Origin: Nitrospinota bacterium
GTDB taxonomy: Bacteria; Nitrospinota_A; UBA7883
NCBI GenBank assembly: GCA_016207925.1
Contig: JACQZB010000014.1
Span: 2,345-34,693 of the forward strand
Direction: 5' to 3'
DNA length: 32,349 nt
Part shown: piece by piece, positions 1,163-30,289 of the stretch
Position numbering within the stretch: position 1 is the first letter of the stretch
Layout: every line of letters begins with the position of its first letter
Made by a program: the position numbers and the translations under genes
The notes under the pieces: model-generated
Seen by the model: only the letters and a program-made list of their open reading frames with translations
Told to the model about the DNA's origin: nothing
Databases searched by the model: none

Positions 1163-2518
1163 TCAAGGCTCCATCAGCCGCGCGCTGCGTTCCATGACTT
1201 CCTGGATGCGCCGGTCGGTCCGGCGCACCTTCTCGGCCAGAATGGAGGCCAGGCTCTTGAACAGCTTGACGCACAACTCCGGACGGGTGACGCGCAGGGC
1301 CACTTCGTTGATGGCCACCAGCCGCACGCGCCCGATGGCCCGCGCCGTGGCGGAGCGGGGCGAGTTGTCTATCACCGCCATTTCGCCGAACAGTTCGCCC
1401 TCCCGCAGGACGCTGATCTCGTGTTCCCCGCCGCCCGCGCCTTTCTGGACGATTTTCACCTGTCCGTCAATGATGACGTACATCTTGTTGCCCGGAGCGC
1501 CCTCGCTGAAAATCACCTCGCCGTCGGGGTGATCCTCCCGCGACGCCAGTTTGAAAAGCTCCACAATCTCCTCATCCTCGAACGTTGAAAAGAAGGTGTA
1601 GTTTTTCCGCAGCGCGCGCACTACCCGCAGTTTTTCATCCCCCAGGATGGCGAAGGCGGGCGATTCGGCCATCTCGAGGCGGCTTAGGTACAGGTCAAGG
1701 GCGTCGGCGAACTGGGAGGCCGAAGGGTACCGCTGTTCGCGGCGCTTGGCCAACGCGTGGGTCAACACCCGGTCCAGTTCGGCGGGCAGCGTCGGATTCA
1801 CCGAAGGCAGCGGCGGCGGCGGATCGCGCAGGATCGCCGCGAACAGCTCGCGCAGCGACGCGCCCTCGAATGGGCGGCGCCCCGTGAGCAGCTCGAACGC
1901 GGTGACGCCAAGGCTGTAGATGTCCGTCTTGTGGTCCACCGGTTCGCCGCGGATCTGCTCCGGCGACATGTAGTGGGGTGTGCCAAGGATGCGCCCGGTT
2001 TCCATCTGGTCCAGCAGGGGGCCGGTGTCGAGCTTGGCCACTCCAAAATCCATGATTTTCGGTTCGCGCCCCTCGACGATCATGATGTTGCCGGGCTTGA
2101 TGTCGCGGTGGATCACCCCGCGCTGGTGGGCGAAGGCCAGCGTCCGTCCCGCGGAGGCCAGCACCCGCAGCCGTTCCAGAAGCGGCAGGGGGTGGCGTGC
2201 CTTGATGATCTCCTCGAGCGTGACGCCTTTGACGTATTCCATGACGAAAAACGGCGCCCCCTGGTCATGCCCGATGTCGTAAATGGCGGTGATGTTGGGG
2301 TGGGCCAGGCGCCCGGCGATTTTGGCCTCGCGCACGAAAATCTCGATGGCGTCGCGCTCGCCCAGGGCGTCAAAGCTTTCGCCCGCGCTGATGGTTTTGA
2401 CCGCGACGACCCGGTCCAGCGCCGTGTCCAGCGCCTTGTACACCACCCCCATCGAGCCGCGGCCCAGCGAGTCCAACAGGCGGTAACGGCCCAGATGCAG
2501 GGCTTTACCGGCGCTCAT
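1163..2518 (-). CDS. Ser/Thr protein kinase with C-terminal cyclic-nucleotide-binding domain
   Basis: A 451-residue Hanks-type kinase fused to a CRP-like sensor domain. Kinase motifs are intact: glycine loop GRGSMG (19-24), VAVK lysine (Lys41), HRDIKPGN (137-144, catalytic Asp139), DFG (157-159) and the SPE version of APE (185-187). A linker leads to a cNMP-binding domain (about 308-425) whose phosphate cassette, FGEMAVIDNSPRSATARA (377-394), matches the CRP/PKA pattern including the RSA core. There is no membrane helix, so the kinase is probably soluble and could be gated by cAMP or c-di-GMP-like ligands (inference). The ATG at 2518 was chosen because the kinase domain starts about 11 residues later and a GGAAG lies upstream; the frame is open further upstream but that part looks non-coding. 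It is divergent from the Mgl module, with which it shares a 210-base intergenic region. Confidence 0.93.
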   Translation of the reverse strand: MSAGKALHLGRYRLLDSLGRGSMGVVYKALDTALDRVVAVKTISAGESFDALGERDAIEIFVREAKIAGRLAHPNITAIYDIGHDQGAPFFVMEYVKGVTLEEIIKARHPLPLLERLRVLASAGRTLAFAHQRGVIHRDIKPGNIMIVEGREPKIMDFGVAKLDTGPLLDQMETGRILGTPHYMSPEQIRGEPVDHKTDIYSLGVTAFELLTGRRPFEGASLRELFAAILRDPPPPLPSVNPTLPAELDRVLTHALAKRREQRYPSASQFADALDLYLSRLEMAESPAFAILGDEKLRVVRALRKNYTFFSTFEDEEIVELFKLASREDHPDGEVIFSEGAPGNKMYVIIDGQVKIVQKGAGGGEHEISVLREGELFGEMAVIDNSPRSATARAIGRVRLVAINEVALRVTRPELCVKLFKSLASILAEKVRRTDRRIQEVMERSARLMEP

Positions 2519-2570
2519 CAAAACAGCTTCCGTAAAGCCATTGCCAACTCTCCCGGCGCCTGAAAACTGT

Positions 2571-2600
2571 TTGACACAACAGGCGTTTCTTACATACAAT
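2571..2600 (+). promoter_or_regulatory. Predicted sigma-70 promoter of the roadblock/Mgl operon
   Basis: A perfect -35 TTGACA (2571-2576) and a TACAAT -10 (2595-2600) are separated by 18 bases. Transcription would start near 2607, leaving a leader of about 120 bases before the TPR-roadblock gene at 2729. This is the only good promoter I see ahead of the tightly packed row to 8757. Confidence 0.65.
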
Positions 2601-2605
2601 GAGTC

Positions 2606-2639
2606 CACTGTAAGTCCAGTGAACATATACTTTTCACTG
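2606..2639. promoter_or_regulatory. Repeated CACTG/CAGTG half-sites, possible operator
   Basis: Three half-sites alternate in orientation just downstream of the -10 box: CACTG at 2606-2610, CAGTGAA at 2617-2623 and TTCACTG at 2633-2639. They form two overlapping dyads that share the middle half-site (5-6-5 and 7-9-7). A related direct repeat, GTCCACTG / GTCCAGTG, recurs with an 11-base period (2603 and 2614), one helical turn. Placement at the expected transcription start, in the divergent region between the kinase and the Mgl operon, fits a regulator-binding site. The regulator is unknown. Confidence 0.4.
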
Positions 2640-2728
2640 TACCATAAGGGTGGGAAAAGGCTCATAAGATTCCTGATCGCGTCACCGTAGCGCGCGGTCA
2701 TATCGAGCCGCGATAGGTCTGTTTACAG

Positions 2729-3706
2729 ATGGCGAATAGTCAACAGGCGAACGGCTCGGCTCCCGGTCCTACGGAAGATTACATCCGGATGGCCAAGGAG
2801 CTTAAGAACCTCAACGAATACACCTTGGCCGTTGAGGTACTCGACAAGGCGCTCAAAAAACATCCCGACAACAGCAACATCTTTGTTCTCAAGGCGCAAG
2901 TGCTGGTCTCCAAGTTCAAGAAGGAGGCCAAGCCGGAGCTGCTCAAGGAAGCCCTTCGGGTGTTGGAGCAAGCCCTCAAACTTGATCCGGAAAGTTACAC
3001 GGCCAAACTGCTGGCCGCGCAGATACTGCTCAAGGGCAGGGCCTACAAACAGGCCGGCGCGCTTTTACGCAATATCCTCAAACGCTTCCCCGACGATGAA
3101 AAAGCCGCCGCGATGATCGCCATGCTCCGCAAGGAGACGGGCGGCGAACCGGAACCGCCCGCGGAAGCGGCGGCCCCGGCGGCTGAACCGAAAGCGGCGG
3201 AGCCAGCCGCGCAAGCGCCCCAGCCCGCGCCCGCGGAGGAGGAAGCCGTCGCGGAAGCGGCGGCGCCCGCCAAGTTCGATGACACCGCCCCCACCGATCA
3301 GTGGGTGCTTGATGACCAACTAGTGATAGACGCCAGCGATGACGCGGAGAACCTGGGGCACCTGAACCTGATGGGCGACAAGCTGACGATGTTCGGGCGC
3401 ATTGAGGGCCTCAACGCCATGTTCATCATTGACGGCAACGGGCAGATGTTCAAATCCATCAACCGCGGCGGAGTGAACGAAAACGTCATCCCTTCGATGG
3501 TATCCAACCTCTACCGCGCCTCGGTGACCGGCATGAAACGCACCGCCAACGGCAGCTTTCAGCGCGGAACGCTGGTGACCCCGGTGGGTACCTTTGTCAT
3601 CGTCAACGCTTTTTACGCCACGCTGGCGCTGGCCCTGTCCAACGACGCCAATATGACCGTGGTGGAGGCCCGCATCCAGCGCTACCTCGAAGAGATTTCC
3701 GAATGA
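2729..3706 (+). CDS. TPR protein with C-terminal roadblock/LC7-like domain
   Basis: A 325-residue protein in three parts. Residues 15-135 are TPR-like helices (for example YTLAVEVLDKALKKHPDNSN and ALRVLEQALKLDPES). Residues 138-190 are a Pro/Ala/Glu-rich linker. Residues 195-325 look like a roadblock/LC7 fold, with the strand-turn-strand GRIEGLNAMFIIDGNGQMFKS at its start and a helix-strand finish. Roadblock proteins dimerise and act as regulators of MglA-type small GTPases, and TPRs supply protein-protein contacts. There is no signal peptide. Its stop overlaps the next start (ATGA at 3703-3706), so it is translationally coupled to a second roadblock protein and then an MglA-type GTPase. The roadblock call is pattern-based; the TPR call is firmer. 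Confidence 0.8.
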   Translation: MANSQQANGSAPGPTEDYIRMAKELKNLNEYTLAVEVLDKALKKHPDNSNIFVLKAQVLVSKFKKEAKPELLKEALRVLEQALKLDPESYTAKLLAAQILLKGRAYKQAGALLRNILKRFPDDEKAAAMIAMLRKETGGEPEPPAEAAAPAAEPKAAEPAAQAPQPAPAEEEAVAEAAAPAKFDDTAPTDQWVLDDQLVIDASDDAENLGHLNLMGDKLTMFGRIEGLNAMFIIDGNGQMFKSINRGGVNENVIPSMVSNLYRASVTGMKRTANGSFQRGTLVTPVGTFVIVNAFYATLALALSNDANMTVVEARIQRYLEEISE

Positions 3707-4068
3707 CCACGTCCCTCAAATCCGCGTTGACCGTGCTGTGCGGCGCCAAGAACGTGCGCGGCGGGTTGATCATCACCAAGGACGGCATGATCATCGAATC
3801 GAACATCGAGGATAAAAAACAGGCCGAAACGCTGGGCGCCTTCATGTCCCACATCGCGCTGAACATAAAGATTTCCCTTAAGGAACTGGGCGCCACCGAT
3901 TTCACCCGCTATGTGCTACAATCCAACAAAAGCCGCGTTTTTCTTGTGGATTTGGGCAAATCGGTGCTGGTGACGCTCACCGACCCCGATGTGGACACGG
4001 CCGCCATCAATGTGGCGATCTATCAAGCCGCCAACCAGATAAAGAAAAGCGGCAGGCTGGACGTATGA
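3703..4068 (+). CDS. Roadblock/LC7 domain protein (MglB-like)
   Basis: A 121-residue single-domain protein. The core GGLIITKDGMIIESN (about 20-34), a central helix (AETLGAFMSHIALNIKISLKEL) and the paired strands ending in VFLVDLGKSVLVTLTDPDVD match the roadblock/LC7 fold used by MglB, the GTPase-activating partner of MglA. It is shorter than the second MglB-like protein at 5342. It overlaps the upstream TPR-roadblock gene by four bases and ends 26 bases before the MglA-fusion gene, so the GTPase is flanked by roadblock proteins on both sides. Which of the two is the true GAP cannot be told from sequence. Confidence 0.82.
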   Translation: MTTSLKSALTVLCGAKNVRGGLIITKDGMIIESNIEDKKQAETLGAFMSHIALNIKISLKELGATDFTRYVLQSNKSRVFLVDLGKSVLVTLTDPDVDTAAINVAIYQAANQIKKSGRLDV

Positions 4069-4094: not shown

Positions 4095-5315
4095 ATGCAG
4101 ATCAATTACGCAAAAAAGGAAATTTCCTGCAAGCTGGTCTATTACGGCCCCGGCATGAGCGGCAAAACCACCAACCTGGAAGTCATCCACCAAAAAGTCC
4201 CCGATGAAAACAAGGGCGAGATGACCTCCATCGCTACCGAGGGCGACCGGACGCTGTTCTTCGACTTTTTACCGCTGGATCTGGGGCGGGTGCGCGGCAT
4301 GACCACCAAGTTCCAACTGTACACCGTGCCCGGCCAGATCTACTATGCCTCCACCCGCAAGCTGGTGCTCCAGGGGGCCGACGCGGTGATTTTCGTGGCG
4401 GACTCGCAAGCCGAGAAAATGCCCGAAAATATTGAATCGCTCAAGGACCTGCAGGACAACCTGGCGGAATACGGGATCAAGATTGATGAAATCCCCCTGG
4501 TGCTCCAGTGGAACAAGCGCGACCTGCCCTCCGCGTTGCCCGTGGAGGAGTTGGACGCCAAGATCAACTGGATGAAAGCCTCCACCGTGGAGGCGATCGC
4601 CGCCACCGGCGAGGGGGTGTTGCCCACGCTCAAGACCGCGGCATCGCTGGTGCTTGACCGGCTCAACGCCAAAACCCCCGGCGCCCCGCCCCCCGCCGCG
4701 GCCGCGGCGGCCCCCGCCGAGGAGAAGAAGCAGGAAGTGTATGTGTCGCGGGTCAACCATGACCAGATATCGCGTTCGTACTTTAACCAGTACTGCCAAC
4801 TCCAGTACCGCATCAACGCGAAAAGCGTCCCCGTGGAGGACTTCAAGAAGTTCACGCTGGAGGAGAAAAAGAAACTCCTTGAGTCACTGATAAATTACGT
4901 CCTAATATTACAGGACGCGAAGAAGCGCAACATCAAGGCCTCCAAGGAGGAGGTGGACAAACAGGTGGCCGCCTTCGTAAAGCGGTTCAATTCACAGGAG
5001 AAGCTTGACGAGTTTCTCCAGTCGCGCAAGATCAGCCTGGACAACCTTCGCAACGAAGGCACCAAGAACATCATCATCGGCAAGCTGATCGCGCAGGTCA
5101 TCCCCGATCTGGGCGAACGCACCAAGATCACCGAACATGACCTGCGCGCGTTCCACGAATCCAACGCCGCGCTGTTCGGCGGAAAAAGTTTTGATCAGAC
5201 CAAGAATGAGGCGCTGGCCGCCTACAAAAATCACATGAAGCGCGCGCTGCTCGAGGAGTTTTACGGCAAGCTCCGGGAGCAGGCCCGCATCGAGATTTTC
5301 CAGGATAAGCTCTAA
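4095..5315 (+). CDS. mglA: MglA-type small GTPase fused to a SurA-N-like chaperone domain
   Basis: A 406-residue protein, about twice the usual MglA length (about 195). Residues 1-195 are a full MglA GTPase: P-loop GPGMSGKT (18-25), switch I region with GDRTLFFDF (Arg52), switch II TVPGQ (77-81, Gln81) and base-specifying NKRD (140-143). These match the positions of the catalytic Arg and Gln known in MglA. An Ala/Pro linker (196-211) leads to residues 215-406, which follow the SurA N-terminal/trigger-factor-like chaperone pattern: a VNHDQISRSYF opening, LLESLINYVLILQDAKKRNIK, EEVDKQVAAFVKRFNS, LDNLRNEGTKNIIIGKLIAQVI, then ITEHDLRAFHESN. No PPIase domain and no signal peptide are present, so the chaperone-like part should be cytoplasmic. 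A GAAGG precedes the ATG. The C-terminal assignment is by pattern and needs a profile or structure test. Confidence 0.88.
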   Translation: MQINYAKKEISCKLVYYGPGMSGKTTNLEVIHQKVPDENKGEMTSIATEGDRTLFFDFLPLDLGRVRGMTTKFQLYTVPGQIYYASTRKLVLQGADAVIFVADSQAEKMPENIESLKDLQDNLAEYGIKIDEIPLVLQWNKRDLPSALPVEELDAKINWMKASTVEAIAATGEGVLPTLKTAASLVLDRLNAKTPGAPPPAAAAAAPAEEKKQEVYVSRVNHDQISRSYFNQYCQLQYRINAKSVPVEDFKKFTLEEKKKLLESLINYVLILQDAKKRNIKASKEEVDKQVAAFVKRFNSQEKLDEFLQSRKISLDNLRNEGTKNIIIGKLIAQVIPDLGERTKITEHDLRAFHESNAALFGGKSFDQTKNEALAAYKNHMKRALLEEFYGKLREQARIEIFQDKL

Positions 5316-5341: not shown

Positions 5342-5842
5342 ATGAAAGACGATCAACTCCGGAAAAAGCGGCTGGTGTACTACAAGGAAGACCTTGACCA
5401 GATAGACAAGCTGCTCGAGGAGTTCCTCAAGCTCTCCAACGCCAAGTGCATCTTCCTGATAGACAAGGAAGGGCATCTGGTCACCAGCAAGGGGGCCGCG
5501 CGCAACTTGAACCCCGAAACGCTCTCCGCGCTGGTGGCGGGTTCCTTTGCGGCTACCAAGGAAATGGCCAAGATGCTCGGTGAAACGGAATTTTCGGTGA
5601 TGTTCCACCAGGGGGCGCGGGACCATATCCATATTTCGCTGGTAAGCGAACGGGCCATCAGCGCAACCATATTCGACGAGAAAACCACGGTGGGCATGGT
5701 CAACCTGTATTCCAAGGAACTTTCCTCCAAGCTCGAAAAAATATTCGACATCGCCATGCGCCGCGTGGCCCAGGATGTGCCGGTGGAACAGGACTACTCC
5801 GACTCGGTCAAGGACCGGCTCGACGACCTGTTCAAGGAATAA
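5342..5842 (+). CDS. mglB: MglB-like roadblock/LC7 protein
   Basis: A 166-residue protein with the MglB layout. A helical N-terminus (YYKEDLDQIDKLLEEFLKLS, 14-32) precedes a roadblock core with CIFLIDKEGHLVTSKG (36-51), a long helix over ALVAGSFAATKEMAKMLG (63-80), strands FSVMFHQGARDHIHISLV (84-101) and a closing helix. MglB is the GTPase-activating protein and polarity partner of MglA in known gliding bacteria. A GGAGG lies about nine bases ahead of the ATG. It follows the MglA fusion gene by 26 bases, which supports the partner assignment. The tail (148-166) is acidic and probably flexible. Confidence 0.85.
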   Translation: MKDDQLRKKRLVYYKEDLDQIDKLLEEFLKLSNAKCIFLIDKEGHLVTSKGAARNLNPETLSALVAGSFAATKEMAKMLGETEFSVMFHQGARDHIHISLVSERAISATIFDEKTTVGMVNLYSKELSSKLEKIFDIAMRRVAQDVPVEQDYSDSVKDRLDDLFKE

Positions 5843-5851
5843 TCCCCGCCC

Positions 5852-7556
5852 ATGCGAGAAGCGTTCCGCCTTTCACCGGCGCGCCGGGGCCTTCTGATGC
5901 CCGCCCTGACCATGGCGGCGGCCCTGTGCATGGTCGATGCGCCGGCCAGCGCGCAGCGGGTGGAGGAACGCCGGTACCTGGACGCGCGGGAATTCGCCCG
6001 CTATTCCTTCACGGCGAACCCCGAGACCCCACGCCCATTTCTTTATGGCGCGCGACGCGGTTTCCGGCGAGCGCAAGGACGTCAACACCGCCCTGACCGA
6101 ATCGCTGGCGGGCGCGCGCGCGGCTTTGTCCGACCGCTTTTCGCGCAGCGCGCTGCTGGCGCGGGCGGCGCCCTGGGCCATGGCGGGCCTGCTGGCCGCG
6201 TTCACCACCACGTTCGTCATCGTGTTCTTGGTGGAGTTCCGGGCGGCGGCGGCGGACCTTACCTCGCGGCTGCCCGTGGCGTTGGAAAGCCCCTGGCGGG
6301 CGGCGGCGGCGGCGCTGGGCGCGCTTATCCCGCTGGCCGCGGGGGGGTGGGTGTTCATGGCGCTGGCGGCGCCGCTTTTGGTGTGGCCCTATCTTAGGCG
6401 GGGCGGGCAGGTGGTGGTGATCCTGTTCACCCTGTTCGCCCTGGGCGCGCCGCCGGTGTTGACATGGATGGGCGCCGGCGCGGCCTTGCGTTCGGCGGAG
6501 GCCTACCGCGCCGTGTACCTGCTGTCCAGCGAGACGTGGGATTTTGAAACCAGGGCCGCGCTGGAAAAAGAGCATGTCCGCCAGCCCGGCGATGAATTGA
6601 CCACCTTCGCCCTGGGCCTGCTCAACAAGCTTGCGCGCGACAAGGACGCGGCGCTGGCCGCCTACGACGCGCTGCTGTTAAGGGATTCCGCCAACGTGCG
6701 CGCGCTGGTCAACAAGGGCAACGTGTATTTCGCCTTCAAGGATTGGCCCGCGGCGGCGGACATGTACCGCCAGGCCATCGCCGCCAACACCCAAACGGCG
6801 GAGGCGCACTACAACCTCTCCAAGGCGTACACGGAGATGTTTCTCAACAAGGAATCCGACGCGGCCTATCAGCAGGCCCGCGCCATTGACCCCAAGAAAA
6901 CCGACGGATTCCGCGACATGTCGCTCCTGGATCCGGAGCGCAAGGTGGTGGACTTCCCCATCACCGCCGAGGACTTGCGCGCGGCCGGGCGCCGGCTGGA
7001 CAGCGCCAGCCAAGCCGCGGGGGATGCGATGTGGAAACGGTATTTCGGGAATCTGTCGCAACAAACCTACAAGATCGTCACCGGCGCCTACCTGTTGCTG
7101 CTGCTGATCGTGTTTGCCTTTTGGAGCCGCTCCATCTCCAGCGTGGTGTGCCATTCTTGCGGCGCGGTCTTTCAGCCCCCCATCCGCCTGGAGGCGGCCA
7201 CGCCCACCTGCACGCAATGCGTGGCGGCGCAAAGCACGCGCGGCGCCGTGTCGTCCGCCAAAAAGGACAAAAAACGCAAGGAAATGCGCGACTACAAGGA
7301 TTTACGCGGCAAAGTGGCCGGCGCGCTGGACCGGGCTTTGCCGGGCGCGGGGCGCGTCTATTTCCGCGAACCGCTCTCCGGCCTCCCCTTCATGCTGGTC
7401 ACCAGCCTGATCCTGATTTACGCCGGGGTGGTGGTGTGGGACGCCCTGGGCGGCGCGCCGCGGGCCAACCCGCTGGCGGATCACGCCGTGTTCTTGACGG
7501 CGGCGGCCCTGTACTGGGCCGTAATGAACACCGTGTTCATGAAGGATTACTACTGA
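5852..7556 (+). CDS. TPR membrane protein with zinc ribbon, interrupted by a one-base frameshift
   Basis: Two overlapping frames together give one 567-residue protein. The first, from the ATG at 5852, has a hydrophobic signal-like segment ending ASAQR and the stretch YLDAREFARYSFTANPE. The second continues HAHFFMARDAVSGERKDVNTALTES, which completes a TPR-like repeat. The switch best fits one extra C in the CCCC at 6027-6030, where third-codon GC also changes frame. Downstream come two or three hydrophobic helices (about 6170-6470), TPRs (about 6590-6900), another helix near 7090, a ribbon-type CxxC pair (CHSC and CTQC, 7150-7222) and C-terminal helices. It starts nine bases after mglB and ends one base before the DUF4388 gene, so it belongs to the operon. 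It may be a membrane anchor for the Mgl proteins (inference). The extra base may be a sequencing error. Confidence 0.75.
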
Positions 7557-7557
7557 C

Positions 7558-8757
7558 ATGGCGCTCAAGGGCAGCCTGGAGGATTTCTCCATCGTCAACA
7601 TTCTCCAGATGATCAAGCTGGAGTCCAAAACCGGGCGCCTTGCGCTCTCCGACGACGCCGATACGCTTAAAATCACCTTCGACGAAGGCTCCATCATCTA
7701 CGCCGAGGGGACGGCGGCCAAGGACGAATACCGCATCCAGGCCACGCTTTTGGCCAACACGCTCATCGGCGCCCAGGAGTGGAACGCCATCCGCCAGGAG
7801 CATGAGGAGCGCCTCAAGCCCTATTGGGAGTTGCTGTCCAAGGCGCTCAGTCCGCAGACGCTTATCGAACTCATCCAGCGGCAGACCATTGACACCGTGT
7901 ACCACGCCCTGCGCTGGAAAAAAGGCTCGTATGAATTCGAGCCGATGAACAAGATCAAGTACAACCCCAAGGTCATGCCCAAGATGGATGTGGACGGCCT
8001 GTTGATGGAAGGCTGCCGCATCGCCGACGAGTGGACCCGCGTCACCAAGGCCCTGCCGCCGCTGGACACCTTCGTGGTCAAGAACATTATGGGCGAAAAT
8101 GACGAGGAAGACGCCATCACCACGCGCGCGCAGGGGAGCGGCGGCGGCGGCGACTACCGCTCCTCGCTGGAATACGAGATACTCACCGCGCGCGGGATAC
8201 AGGTGAACAACGCCCAGGTCGCCGTGCTGTCGGCCATGGGCCAGGGCTTGACCATCCGCGAGTTGATGGATCATGCGCGGCAGGGGCATTTCGCCACGCT
8301 CGAAGCGGTCCAGGCGCTCCTGCAGATTGGCGTGCTCAAGATAGCCGAACGCAAGGACAAGAAGCGCATCGCCGCGGACCACACGGGAACCTCGGCGCAG
8401 TTGGTGGTGGTGTTGGCGCTGGCCCTGATCCTGGCGGCGGGCGCGTATTGGCAGTACCTCTCCTGGCCCGCTGACGCCGCGGCGCGCGCGGGGGGCGTGA
8501 CCGCGCTCAAAAAAATCCAGGCCGGGGAAGGACTGTCAAAAATCGCTTACGCCATCCGGATACACCTTGCCCTCGCCGGCGCCATGCCCAAGCGGCTGGA
8601 CAACCTGGTGGAATCCGGCGCGCTGGAACCGCGGGACCTTACCGATCCCTGGGGCGCGCCCTACCAGGCGGTGTTCGAGGAAGGGCGTTTCGCCCTCTTT
8701 TCCACCGGCCCCGACGTGGTGCTTAACACCGACAACATCTACTACACCGCCGAGTGA
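7558..8757 (+). CDS. DUF4388 protein with membrane helix and GspG-like C-terminus
   Basis: A 399-residue fusion. Residues 1-130 are a DUF4388 (PATAN-like) domain, recognisable from LEDFSIVNILQMIKLESKTGRLALS and the later FDEGSIIYAEG. This domain is common in Deltaproteobacteria-type signalling and gliding proteins. Residues 200-265 are helical and winged-helix-like (VAVLSAMGQGLTIRELM). One membrane helix spans about 281-301. The part beyond it (315-399) ends in DPWGAPYQAVFEEGRFALFSTGPD, the C-terminal signature of type II secretion pseudopilin GspG. Its usual N-terminal prepilin helix is absent and the fold is hung on the internal membrane helix instead. A cytoplasmic signalling domain is thus linked to a probable periplasmic pseudopilin-like domain. 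It follows the TPR membrane gene by one base. Confidence 0.85.
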   Translation: MALKGSLEDFSIVNILQMIKLESKTGRLALSDDADTLKITFDEGSIIYAEGTAAKDEYRIQATLLANTLIGAQEWNAIRQEHEERLKPYWELLSKALSPQTLIELIQRQTIDTVYHALRWKKGSYEFEPMNKIKYNPKVMPKMDVDGLLMEGCRIADEWTRVTKALPPLDTFVVKNIMGENDEEDAITTRAQGSGGGGDYRSSLEYEILTARGIQVNNAQVAVLSAMGQGLTIRELMDHARQGHFATLEAVQALLQIGVLKIAERKDKKRIAADHTGTSAQLVVVLALALILAAGAYWQYLSWPADAAARAGGVTALKKIQAGEGLSKIAYAIRIHLALAGAMPKRLDNLVESGALEPRDLTDPWGAPYQAVFEEGRFALFSTGPDVVLNTDNIYYTAE

Positions 8758-28339: not shown

Positions 28340-30289
28340 TTGTTTTTTTACCGGACTTGTAGCGCCGCGACGGGAAAAACCGCGACGAGCGGTTTCATTG
28401 TCCTGGCGGCCCTTTTTCTCGCCGTCATGCAGGGCGGGCCCGCCCGCGCCGGTGAAGCGCCCGCCGCGGCGGAACTTTCCGGCACAAATGCCGAAGTTGA
28501 GCTTGGCCCCTTCTATCACTACTTTGAAGACCCTACCGGCGCGTTGGGTCTGCGTGACGTGATGGATGGCGCCATGGCGGCGCGCTTTAAACCCCTGCGC
28601 GAGCAAAAACCCAACTTCGGGTACACCAAGTCCGCCATGTGGGTTATGGCCGGGCTTGACAACAAACTTGCGTCGCCGTCCGAGTGGCTTCTGGAAATCC
28701 CCTTCCCCACGCTTGATTCCGTCGAAGTCTATCTGGCCGGCGCGGACGGGCGCGAGTTGGCCCGCTACACGGCGGGCGACCTGCTGCCCTTCGGCGCACG
28801 TCCGTCGCCGCACCGTCACTTTGTCTTTCCCGTGTCACCCCCGCCGGGGGAGCGCTCCGTGTTGTTCATGCGGTTCAAGTCACAAGGGAGCATGACGGTG
28901 GCCTCCACGCTATGGCCCCCGGCGCTGTTCAACTAACACAGCCGCGACGCGTACATCGGCATGAGCCTGTACTTTGGAATATTGGCCGCGCTGTTCGCCT
29001 ACAATCTCCTCCTGTTCCTTTCACTGCGCGACCGCAGTTACCTGTACTACGTCCTCTTCGTGGCCAGCATGGCGGTGGGGCAGGCGGCGTGGAACGGGCT
29101 TGCCTACGAGTTCTTGTGGCCCAACTGGCCCGCATGGGGCAACATTGCGGCGGTGGCGGGCTTTAACGCCACGGGGCTGTTTGGCGCGCTGTTCTCGCGC
29201 GCGTTCCTGGACACCCGGCGCGCCGCGCCCTTGCTGGACAAGGTTATCATGGGTTTAGCGGCGGCGTTCGCGGCGTGGATGGCGCTGGCGCCGGTGATCC
29301 CGTATCAGGCCAACGCCATGCTCACCTCGTTTACGGGCCTGACCTTTTCCATCGTCGCCACGGCGACCGGCGCGTTGTGCCTGGCGCGTGGTTTCAGCGC
29401 CGCGCGGTTTTTCCTGCTGGCGTGGACCATGCTGCTGATTGGCACGGCGGCCCTCGGCGCGCGCAACCTGGACCTGATACCCACCAACTTTTTCACCCTG
29501 TACGCCATGCAGATCGGCAGCGCGCTGGAAATGCTGTTGCTCTCCTTCGCCCTGGCCGAACGCATCAACGTCCTTCGGCGCGGGAAGGAAAAAGCCGAAG
29601 CCGAAACGCTCACCATCCGCCGCGAAATGGTCGCCGCGCTCCAGCGCCAGGAACATGAGTTGGAATTGAAGGTCGCCGCGCGCACGGGTGAGCTGCGCGC
29701 CGTAAATGACCGGCTGGTGGAAAGCGAAAAGATGCTGCGCAATCTGGCCCATCACGACCCGCTTACCGGCCTTATCAACCGCACACTGCTGGACGAACTG
29801 CTGGACCACGCCATCGAACGCGCGCGCCGCCATGGAACCATGCTCGCCGCGTTGTTCATTGATCTCGACGGCTTCAAGGCGATCAATGACACCCACGGCC
29901 ACGCCGCCGGGGACGACCTGCTGCGCGCCGTGGGCGACCGCCTGATCATTGGCGTGCGCGCCTCCGACACGGTGGCCCGCCTGGGCGGCGACGAATTCGT
30001 GGCGCTGCTCGAAGAAGTGAGCCATCCCGAAGACGCCGTGCATGTGGCCGAAAAGCTGGTGGCCTCCCTCGCCGAACCCTTCGCGGCGGGTACACGCTCC
30101 ATCCGGATCAGCGCCAGCGTGGGGGTGGCCCTCTATCCCGGCGACGGGCTGGAAGCGCCCACGCTTATAAAATGGGCCGACCGCGCCATGTACGACGCCA
30201 AGCTGGCCGGGAAAAACTGCGTTCGTCTCTCGGCGGGGTTGAAAAAAGCGCTCATGGCGCGGACGGGGAACGAATCGCCGCGGGACTGA
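28340..30289 (+). CDS. 7TMR-DISM diguanylate cyclase interrupted by an in-frame TAA
   Basis: One frame of 650 codons with a single stop at codon 199 (28934-28936). Before it: signal-like N-terminus (about 15-38) and a 7TMR-DISM extracellular-2-type sensor domain (40-198), with WVMAGLDNK and FPTLDSVEVYL. After it: HSRDAYIGMSLYFGILAALFAYNLLLFLSLRDRSYLYY, the usual first helix of the seven-helix region, then a coiled coil (LAERINVLRRGKEKAEAE). The GGDEF domain runs from HHDPLTGLINR to the end, with the active RLGGDEFVALLEE. No EAL domain. The TAA sits exactly where sensor meets membrane; GAA or CAA there would fit. Without readthrough, restart at 28961 (ATG, no clear ribosome site) would give a cyclase lacking its sensor. 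The start is TTG at 28340 with AAAGG seven bases ahead. Confidence 0.85.

Follow-up and report, generated by a model that had tools for sequence, protein, structure and literature searches.

MglA, the bacterial Ras-like switch protein, is a polarity GTPase that normally stands alone, and SurA is a chaperone normally found outside the cytoplasm. The window analyzed here, a stretch of 32,349 nucleotides from a Nitrospinota bacterium (contig JACQZB010000014.1), holds an open reading frame in which a first-pass annotation, made from the letters alone, had seen both joined in a single polypeptide. What is this extension of an MglA, how widely is it found, and what might a chaperone fold do on a polarity GTPase? 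The reading frame was divided as follows:

4095-5315, plus strand: fusion open reading frame of 406 amino acids with an ATG start and no internal stops
4095..4670, plus strand: MglA G domain, residues 1-192 (phmmer against solved MglA, E 1e-68)
4671..4721, plus strand: linker rich in Ala, Pro, Glu and Lys, residues 193-209, variable in length and sequence
4722..5159, plus strand: SurA-like N part of the chaperone core, residues 210-355 (matched by SurA_N_3; the orthologue profile matches parvulin N parts)
5160..5315 including the stop codon, plus strand: SurA-like C part of the core, residues 356-406 (second profile match)

That a complete MglA forms the N-terminus was confirmed by phmmer, since the solved MglAs of Thermus and Myxococcus matched residues 3-191 of the fusion (E 1e-68), and the G domain is homologous to MglA over its whole length. 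The P-loop (GPGMSGKTT), the Arg finger region (EGDRT), the G3 motif (TVPGQ) and NKRD are all intact and, in an alignment, invariant across 17 orthologues, as are the catalytic Gln (Q81) and the intrinsic Arg finger (R52), both aligned with T. thermophilus MglA. The fused protein therefore has the same G domain, switch, Arg finger and TVPGQ motif as the MglAs of Myxococcus xanthus and Thermus thermophilus, and likewise an adjacent MglB gene; however, those proteins have about 195-200 amino acids and no extension, whereas here a 195-residue SurA core is attached. With its 406 residues the fusion is beyond the 150-240 amino acids used as the single-domain size in a published survey (PMC4316618), and because longer members were left out there by definition, this limits the label "small GTPase" in its strict sense and leaves the homology with MglA unaffected. 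The earlier statement that MglA is a single-domain protein is partly an effect of the survey of Wuichet and Sogaard-Andersen, in which MglA-clade proteins longer than 240 amino acids were left out (PMC4316618), and many MglAs of other phyla have long, though unrelated, extensions.

The extension has indeed about 190 residues, as had been noted, and its similarity to a SurA-type chaperone domain was borne out. Pfam SurA_N_3 (PF13624) matches residues 213-331 with 45.3 bits against a curated cut-off of 27.2 (E 1.1e-11 for the whole protein and E 4e-12 for the domain alone), and the same model is matched by 17 of the 17 orthologous extensions at E <= 0.01 and, above the cut-off, by a copy from another phylum (genome G249); two further SurA-type Pfam models match the extension below cut-off. 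The proposed likeness to trigger factor fared less well than that to SurA, for the Trigger_C match is weak (E 0.004, below cut-off) and inferior to that of SurA_N_3, and a trigger-factor origin was set aside on this ground. A profile of the 17 orthologous extensions was also run against SurA/PrsA-like parvulins of the same genomes, most of which it matched in two colinear pieces flanking the PPIase domain, with model positions up to about 155 falling before this domain and positions of about 150-197 after it. In one parvulin (L086) the matches lie at 77-220 (i-E 8e-17) and 324-366 (i-E 5.8e-5), with the Rotamase domain between them, and in another (L094) at 38-182 (i-E 7e-16) and 278-319 (i-E 1e-3). 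Many of the second-piece matches, corresponding to the C part, are weak when taken singly, the best being that of L086. Since the two pieces flank the PPIase domain, the extension is, as judged from these profiles, the N and C parts of a SurA/PrsA-type parvulin with the isomerase omitted, i.e. the "core module". The earlier assignment to the SurA N-terminal domain was hence right for the N part and incomplete for the remainder, as the last 50 or so residues represent the SurA C part.

As the first-pass annotation had claimed, the fusion has neither an isomerase nor an export signal: Pfam gave no Rotamase match in it, while the domain is present in the parvulin relative, and the fusion, which begins directly with MglA, showed neither a signal peptide nor a membrane segment (top 19-residue mean hydropathy of 0.99). 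The SurA-like extension is thus predicted to be cytoplasmic. It shares the N and C core parts, in the same order, with parvulins of the SurA/PrsA/PpiD type, but differs from them in having no signal peptide or PPIase domain, in its predicted location, in being tied to a GTPase and in having invariant residues of its own. Its domain content equals that of the "core module" constructs of E. coli SurA, in which the N and C core, with the PPIase domains removed, retains most of the chaperone function in vivo (PMC2556385); those constructs are laboratory deletions acting in the periplasm, whereas the fusion described here is natural. Structure prediction told little about the extension, as its input was small: seven sequences for the full protein and three for the extension rather than the 17-member alignment. 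The AlphaFold model of the extension had a mean pLDDT of 60, with values of about 40-60 over much of the SurA part, which was also of low confidence in the full-protein model. In Foldseek, the top match of the low-confidence extension model was SurA (1m5y) with a non-significant E of 0.5, and the full model was matched in its GTPase part and nowhere beyond.

A colinear, full-length fusion is present in 17 of the 23 examined genomes of the class to which the window belongs, while the other six have no MglA match whatever, and as many of these genomes are incomplete, single absences carry little weight. Two of these relatives with the fusion are also in NCBI under accessions of their own, as the metagenome-assembled genomes Nitrospirae bacterium HyVt-426 and Dive96_bin4.192. 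Outside the class, MglA was detected at E 1e-40 in 128 of 362 genomes, and among these 362 the SurA core is attached to MglA in G249 only (449 amino acids, E 1.8e-44). In a tree of 62 sequences, the 18 fused MglAs occupy one side of a branch, with that of G249 as sister to the class (support 93/83) and planctomycete MglAs next. As the fused MglA parts form one clade in this tree, a single fusion event is the simplest reading.

Other MglAs are extended too. A second MglA of the class (G000:C137 = L058; L059-L065) carries an extension of another, unrelated kind, about 105-140 residues long and helical-looking at its end, which gave no Pfam match above cut-off and matched neither the SurA-core profile nor SurA_N. 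Many MglAs of other phyla (L022-L026, L038-L039, L099-L117) have long C-terminal extensions of several kinds, among them acidic linkers ending in a short beta-rich segment and basic tails ending in KKKGFFSRLFG-like sequences; those of L038 and L039 have a C-terminal hydrophobic segment.

The fusion gene is the third of a six-gene module that, as far as two contigs that end early show it, has the same order in all 17 loci of the class (TPR-roadblock, roadblock, MglA-SurA, MglB, TPR/zinc-ribbon membrane protein, PATAN). Its neighbors in the window are the following:

1163..2701, minus strand: Ser/Thr kinase with a cyclic-nucleotide-binding domain, divergent (Pkinase E 5e-48, cNMP_binding E 1e-21)
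2729..3706, plus strand: TPR repeats with a roadblock-like C-terminal half (TPR models), kept in 18 of 18 loci
3703..4068, plus strand: second roadblock protein, unlike MglB, 121 amino acids (Robl_LC7 E 2e-9)
5342..5842, plus strand: MglB, the roadblock GTPase-activating protein (phmmer against solved MglB E 1e-30; Robl_LC7)
5937..7556, plus strand: TPR/zinc-ribbon membrane protein with six hydrophobic segments, kept in 18 of 18 loci
7558..8757, plus strand: PATAN (DUF4388) protein with one hydrophobic segment (Pfam DUF4388 E 5e-26)

The roadblock half of the first plus-strand protein was read from its sequence, there being no Robl_LC7 match among the Pfam rows listed for it, and its gene overlaps the following roadblock gene by 4 bp. 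The latter lies 26 bp upstream of the fusion, is kept in 18 of 18 loci, and its product has weak PDB matches to other roadblock proteins. MglB, likewise kept in 18 of 18 loci, starts 26 bp downstream of the fusion, and the PATAN gene is present in 16 of 18, the contig ending before its place in the remaining two (L043 and L057). Compared with M. xanthus and T. thermophilus MglA, the operon described here thus adds two roadblock genes, the TPR membrane protein and the PATAN protein. G249 has all six genes in a permuted order, the last two coming first, and they form an AT-rich island of 37% GC in surroundings of 59% GC; this difference in composition, an indirect kind of evidence, suggests transfer as a unit, and the module apparently moved as such into G249. 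The kinase is accessory, as it adjoins the module in only some loci of the class; its position is reminiscent of Myxococcus, where the masABK operon (MasK kinase) lies divergently next to mglBA (PMC3546991). Two further observations concern the window itself. Homologues of the TPR membrane protein are longer by about 110 residues at the N-terminus, where they show an apparent signal peptide, and their start seems to correspond to position 5852, in another frame (5852-6030, about 75 codons missing), so that the gene in the window seems to carry a deletion and frameshift, or an assembly error. Downstream, a 7TMR-DISM extracellular domain (28340-28936) and a 7TM/GGDEF part (28961-30289) lie in two adjacent open reading frames (28340-30289), which together resemble a single, interrupted diguanylate cyclase gene.

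The TPR membrane protein follows the fusion closely within the class, being present in 17 of 17 fusion genomes and in none of the other six at E 1e-8 (Fisher p 1e-5, a value that overstates independence because the genomes are related). By profile, strong homologues of it (E up to about 2e-23) were found outside the class in 34 genomes; MglA is present in 33 of these versus 29% of the rest (Fisher p 1.5e-15, uncorrected for relatedness). In each of the 20 outside-class loci that were fetched (L133-L152), a PATAN (DUF4388) gene adjoins that of the TPR membrane protein; these pairs occur nearly always in MglA-bearing genomes, and in 2 of the 20 loci MglA is also nearby. The TPR-membrane/PATAN pair looks like a general partner pair of MglA. 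Neighborhoods of MglA and PATAN genes were reportedly described by Makarova in 2006. The location of PATAN genes near MglA or MglB, as here, was noted earlier (Wuichet 2014; PMC4316618), but in the present loci PATAN is paired with the TPR/zinc-ribbon membrane gene and MglA is fused with SurA. In Myxococcus, SgmX, an effector of MglA, co-occurs with a TPR protein and with PATAN proteins (PMC11580455), and the MglA-GTP/TPR-protein pair MglA-SgmX of M. xanthus is a plausible parallel. A search of the open-access literature yielded no paper on an MglA-SurA fusion or on an MglA-DUF4388 link by name. The presence of PilT, examined as a possible sign of a connection with pili, does not discriminate: it scores above the cut-off in 22 of the 23 class genomes, including five of the six without the module.

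How, then, could the SurA core act? The reading that we favor, and to which we would give about an even chance, is that this polarity GTPase of the MglA type carries its own effector arm, a cytoplasmic SurA core, which docks on a protein of its own module. An intact G domain with MglB encoded next to it points to a normal GTPase cycle, in which MglB would determine which nucleotide the G domain holds, as is established for MglA and MglB. The partner of the SurA core would be a fixed segment, most probably an exposed part of a module protein, with the TPR/zinc-ribbon membrane protein and the PATAN protein as the likeliest candidates; by this contact MglA-GTP would be tied to a complex in the envelope, whose target may be a pilus or a secretion machine. 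In this role the chaperone fold would serve for docking and no longer for the folding of exported proteins; the peptide- or effector-binding arm under GTP control that had been suggested for this protein would fit the context. Residues C234, Q235, Q237, Y238, F250, R311, N320 and A322 are found in at least 16 of 17 fusions and in at most one of 14 parvulins, and Q237, R311 and N320 are, by eye, also kept in the sequence of G249. Near-invariance in the fusions together with near-absence from parvulins favors a fixed, specific interface over generic client binding.

The same fusion-specific conservation could also reflect a dimer interface or a contact with the G domain. The SurA core might accordingly be a self-association or intramolecular module that dimerizes the GTPase or folds onto its G domain, altering the GTPase cycle or the access of MglB and binding no outside partner. 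The invariant residues could form such an interface, and the geometry of MglA could matter, as an MglB dimer is reported to contact MglA asymmetrically (PMC11016934). However, the linker of about 20 residues varies in both length and sequence (mean pairwise identity 32% among orthologues) and is about 40 residues longer in G249, which disfavors a tight, fixed contact with the G domain, and we consider this explanation rather improbable. Also unlikely, in our opinion, is a GTP-controlled cytoplasmic chaperone for export clients, e.g. pilins or outer-membrane proteins, which it would keep unfolded and pass on to the module's complex in the envelope. The activity of the SurA N+C core without PPIase domains (PMC2556385) and the prediction that two module partners are membrane proteins are in line with it, but the fixed polar residues, conserved in the fusions and absent from parvulins, suggest a specific partner, ordinary parvulin chaperones are already encoded in these genomes, and nothing in the module resembles a secretion client or channel. 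Given how diverse the long C-terminal extensions of MglAs in other phyla are, one could also regard the present one as a passive tail without a specific role; this is very unlikely, since the extension has a match in a known domain family, recurs in a second phylum (E 1.8e-44) and shows about 40-50% mean pairwise identity with 21 positions invariant across the class, which suggests strong purifying selection. Finally, although the genome is a draft, an assembly or frame error joining mglA with a parvulin gene, which had been named as a possible refutation, has a negligible probability and was ruled out, because the fusion is read colinearly in 18 independent assemblies.

With the docking arm as the preferred reading, the locus would represent a mobile six-gene GTPase system in which a Ras-like switch bearing a cytoplasmic, isomerase-free SurA arm is combined with TPR/zinc-ribbon and PATAN proteins. 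Tentatively, and with somewhat less than an even chance for the whole of this reading, the system would form a previously undescribed envelope-linked complex and, jointly with this, the TPR-membrane/PATAN pair would be a general, unrecognized partner of MglA across phyla. The signal output of bacterial Ras-like GTPases is known in detail in few systems, mainly in Myxococcus. A candidate effector arm that is covalently attached and conserved means that its partner can be sought directly, and the co-occurrence of MglA with the TPR-membrane/PATAN pair provides testable candidate partners of MglA in many phyla. If the proposed reading is true, a GTPase would here control a SurA chaperone fold that is put to use in the cytoplasm.
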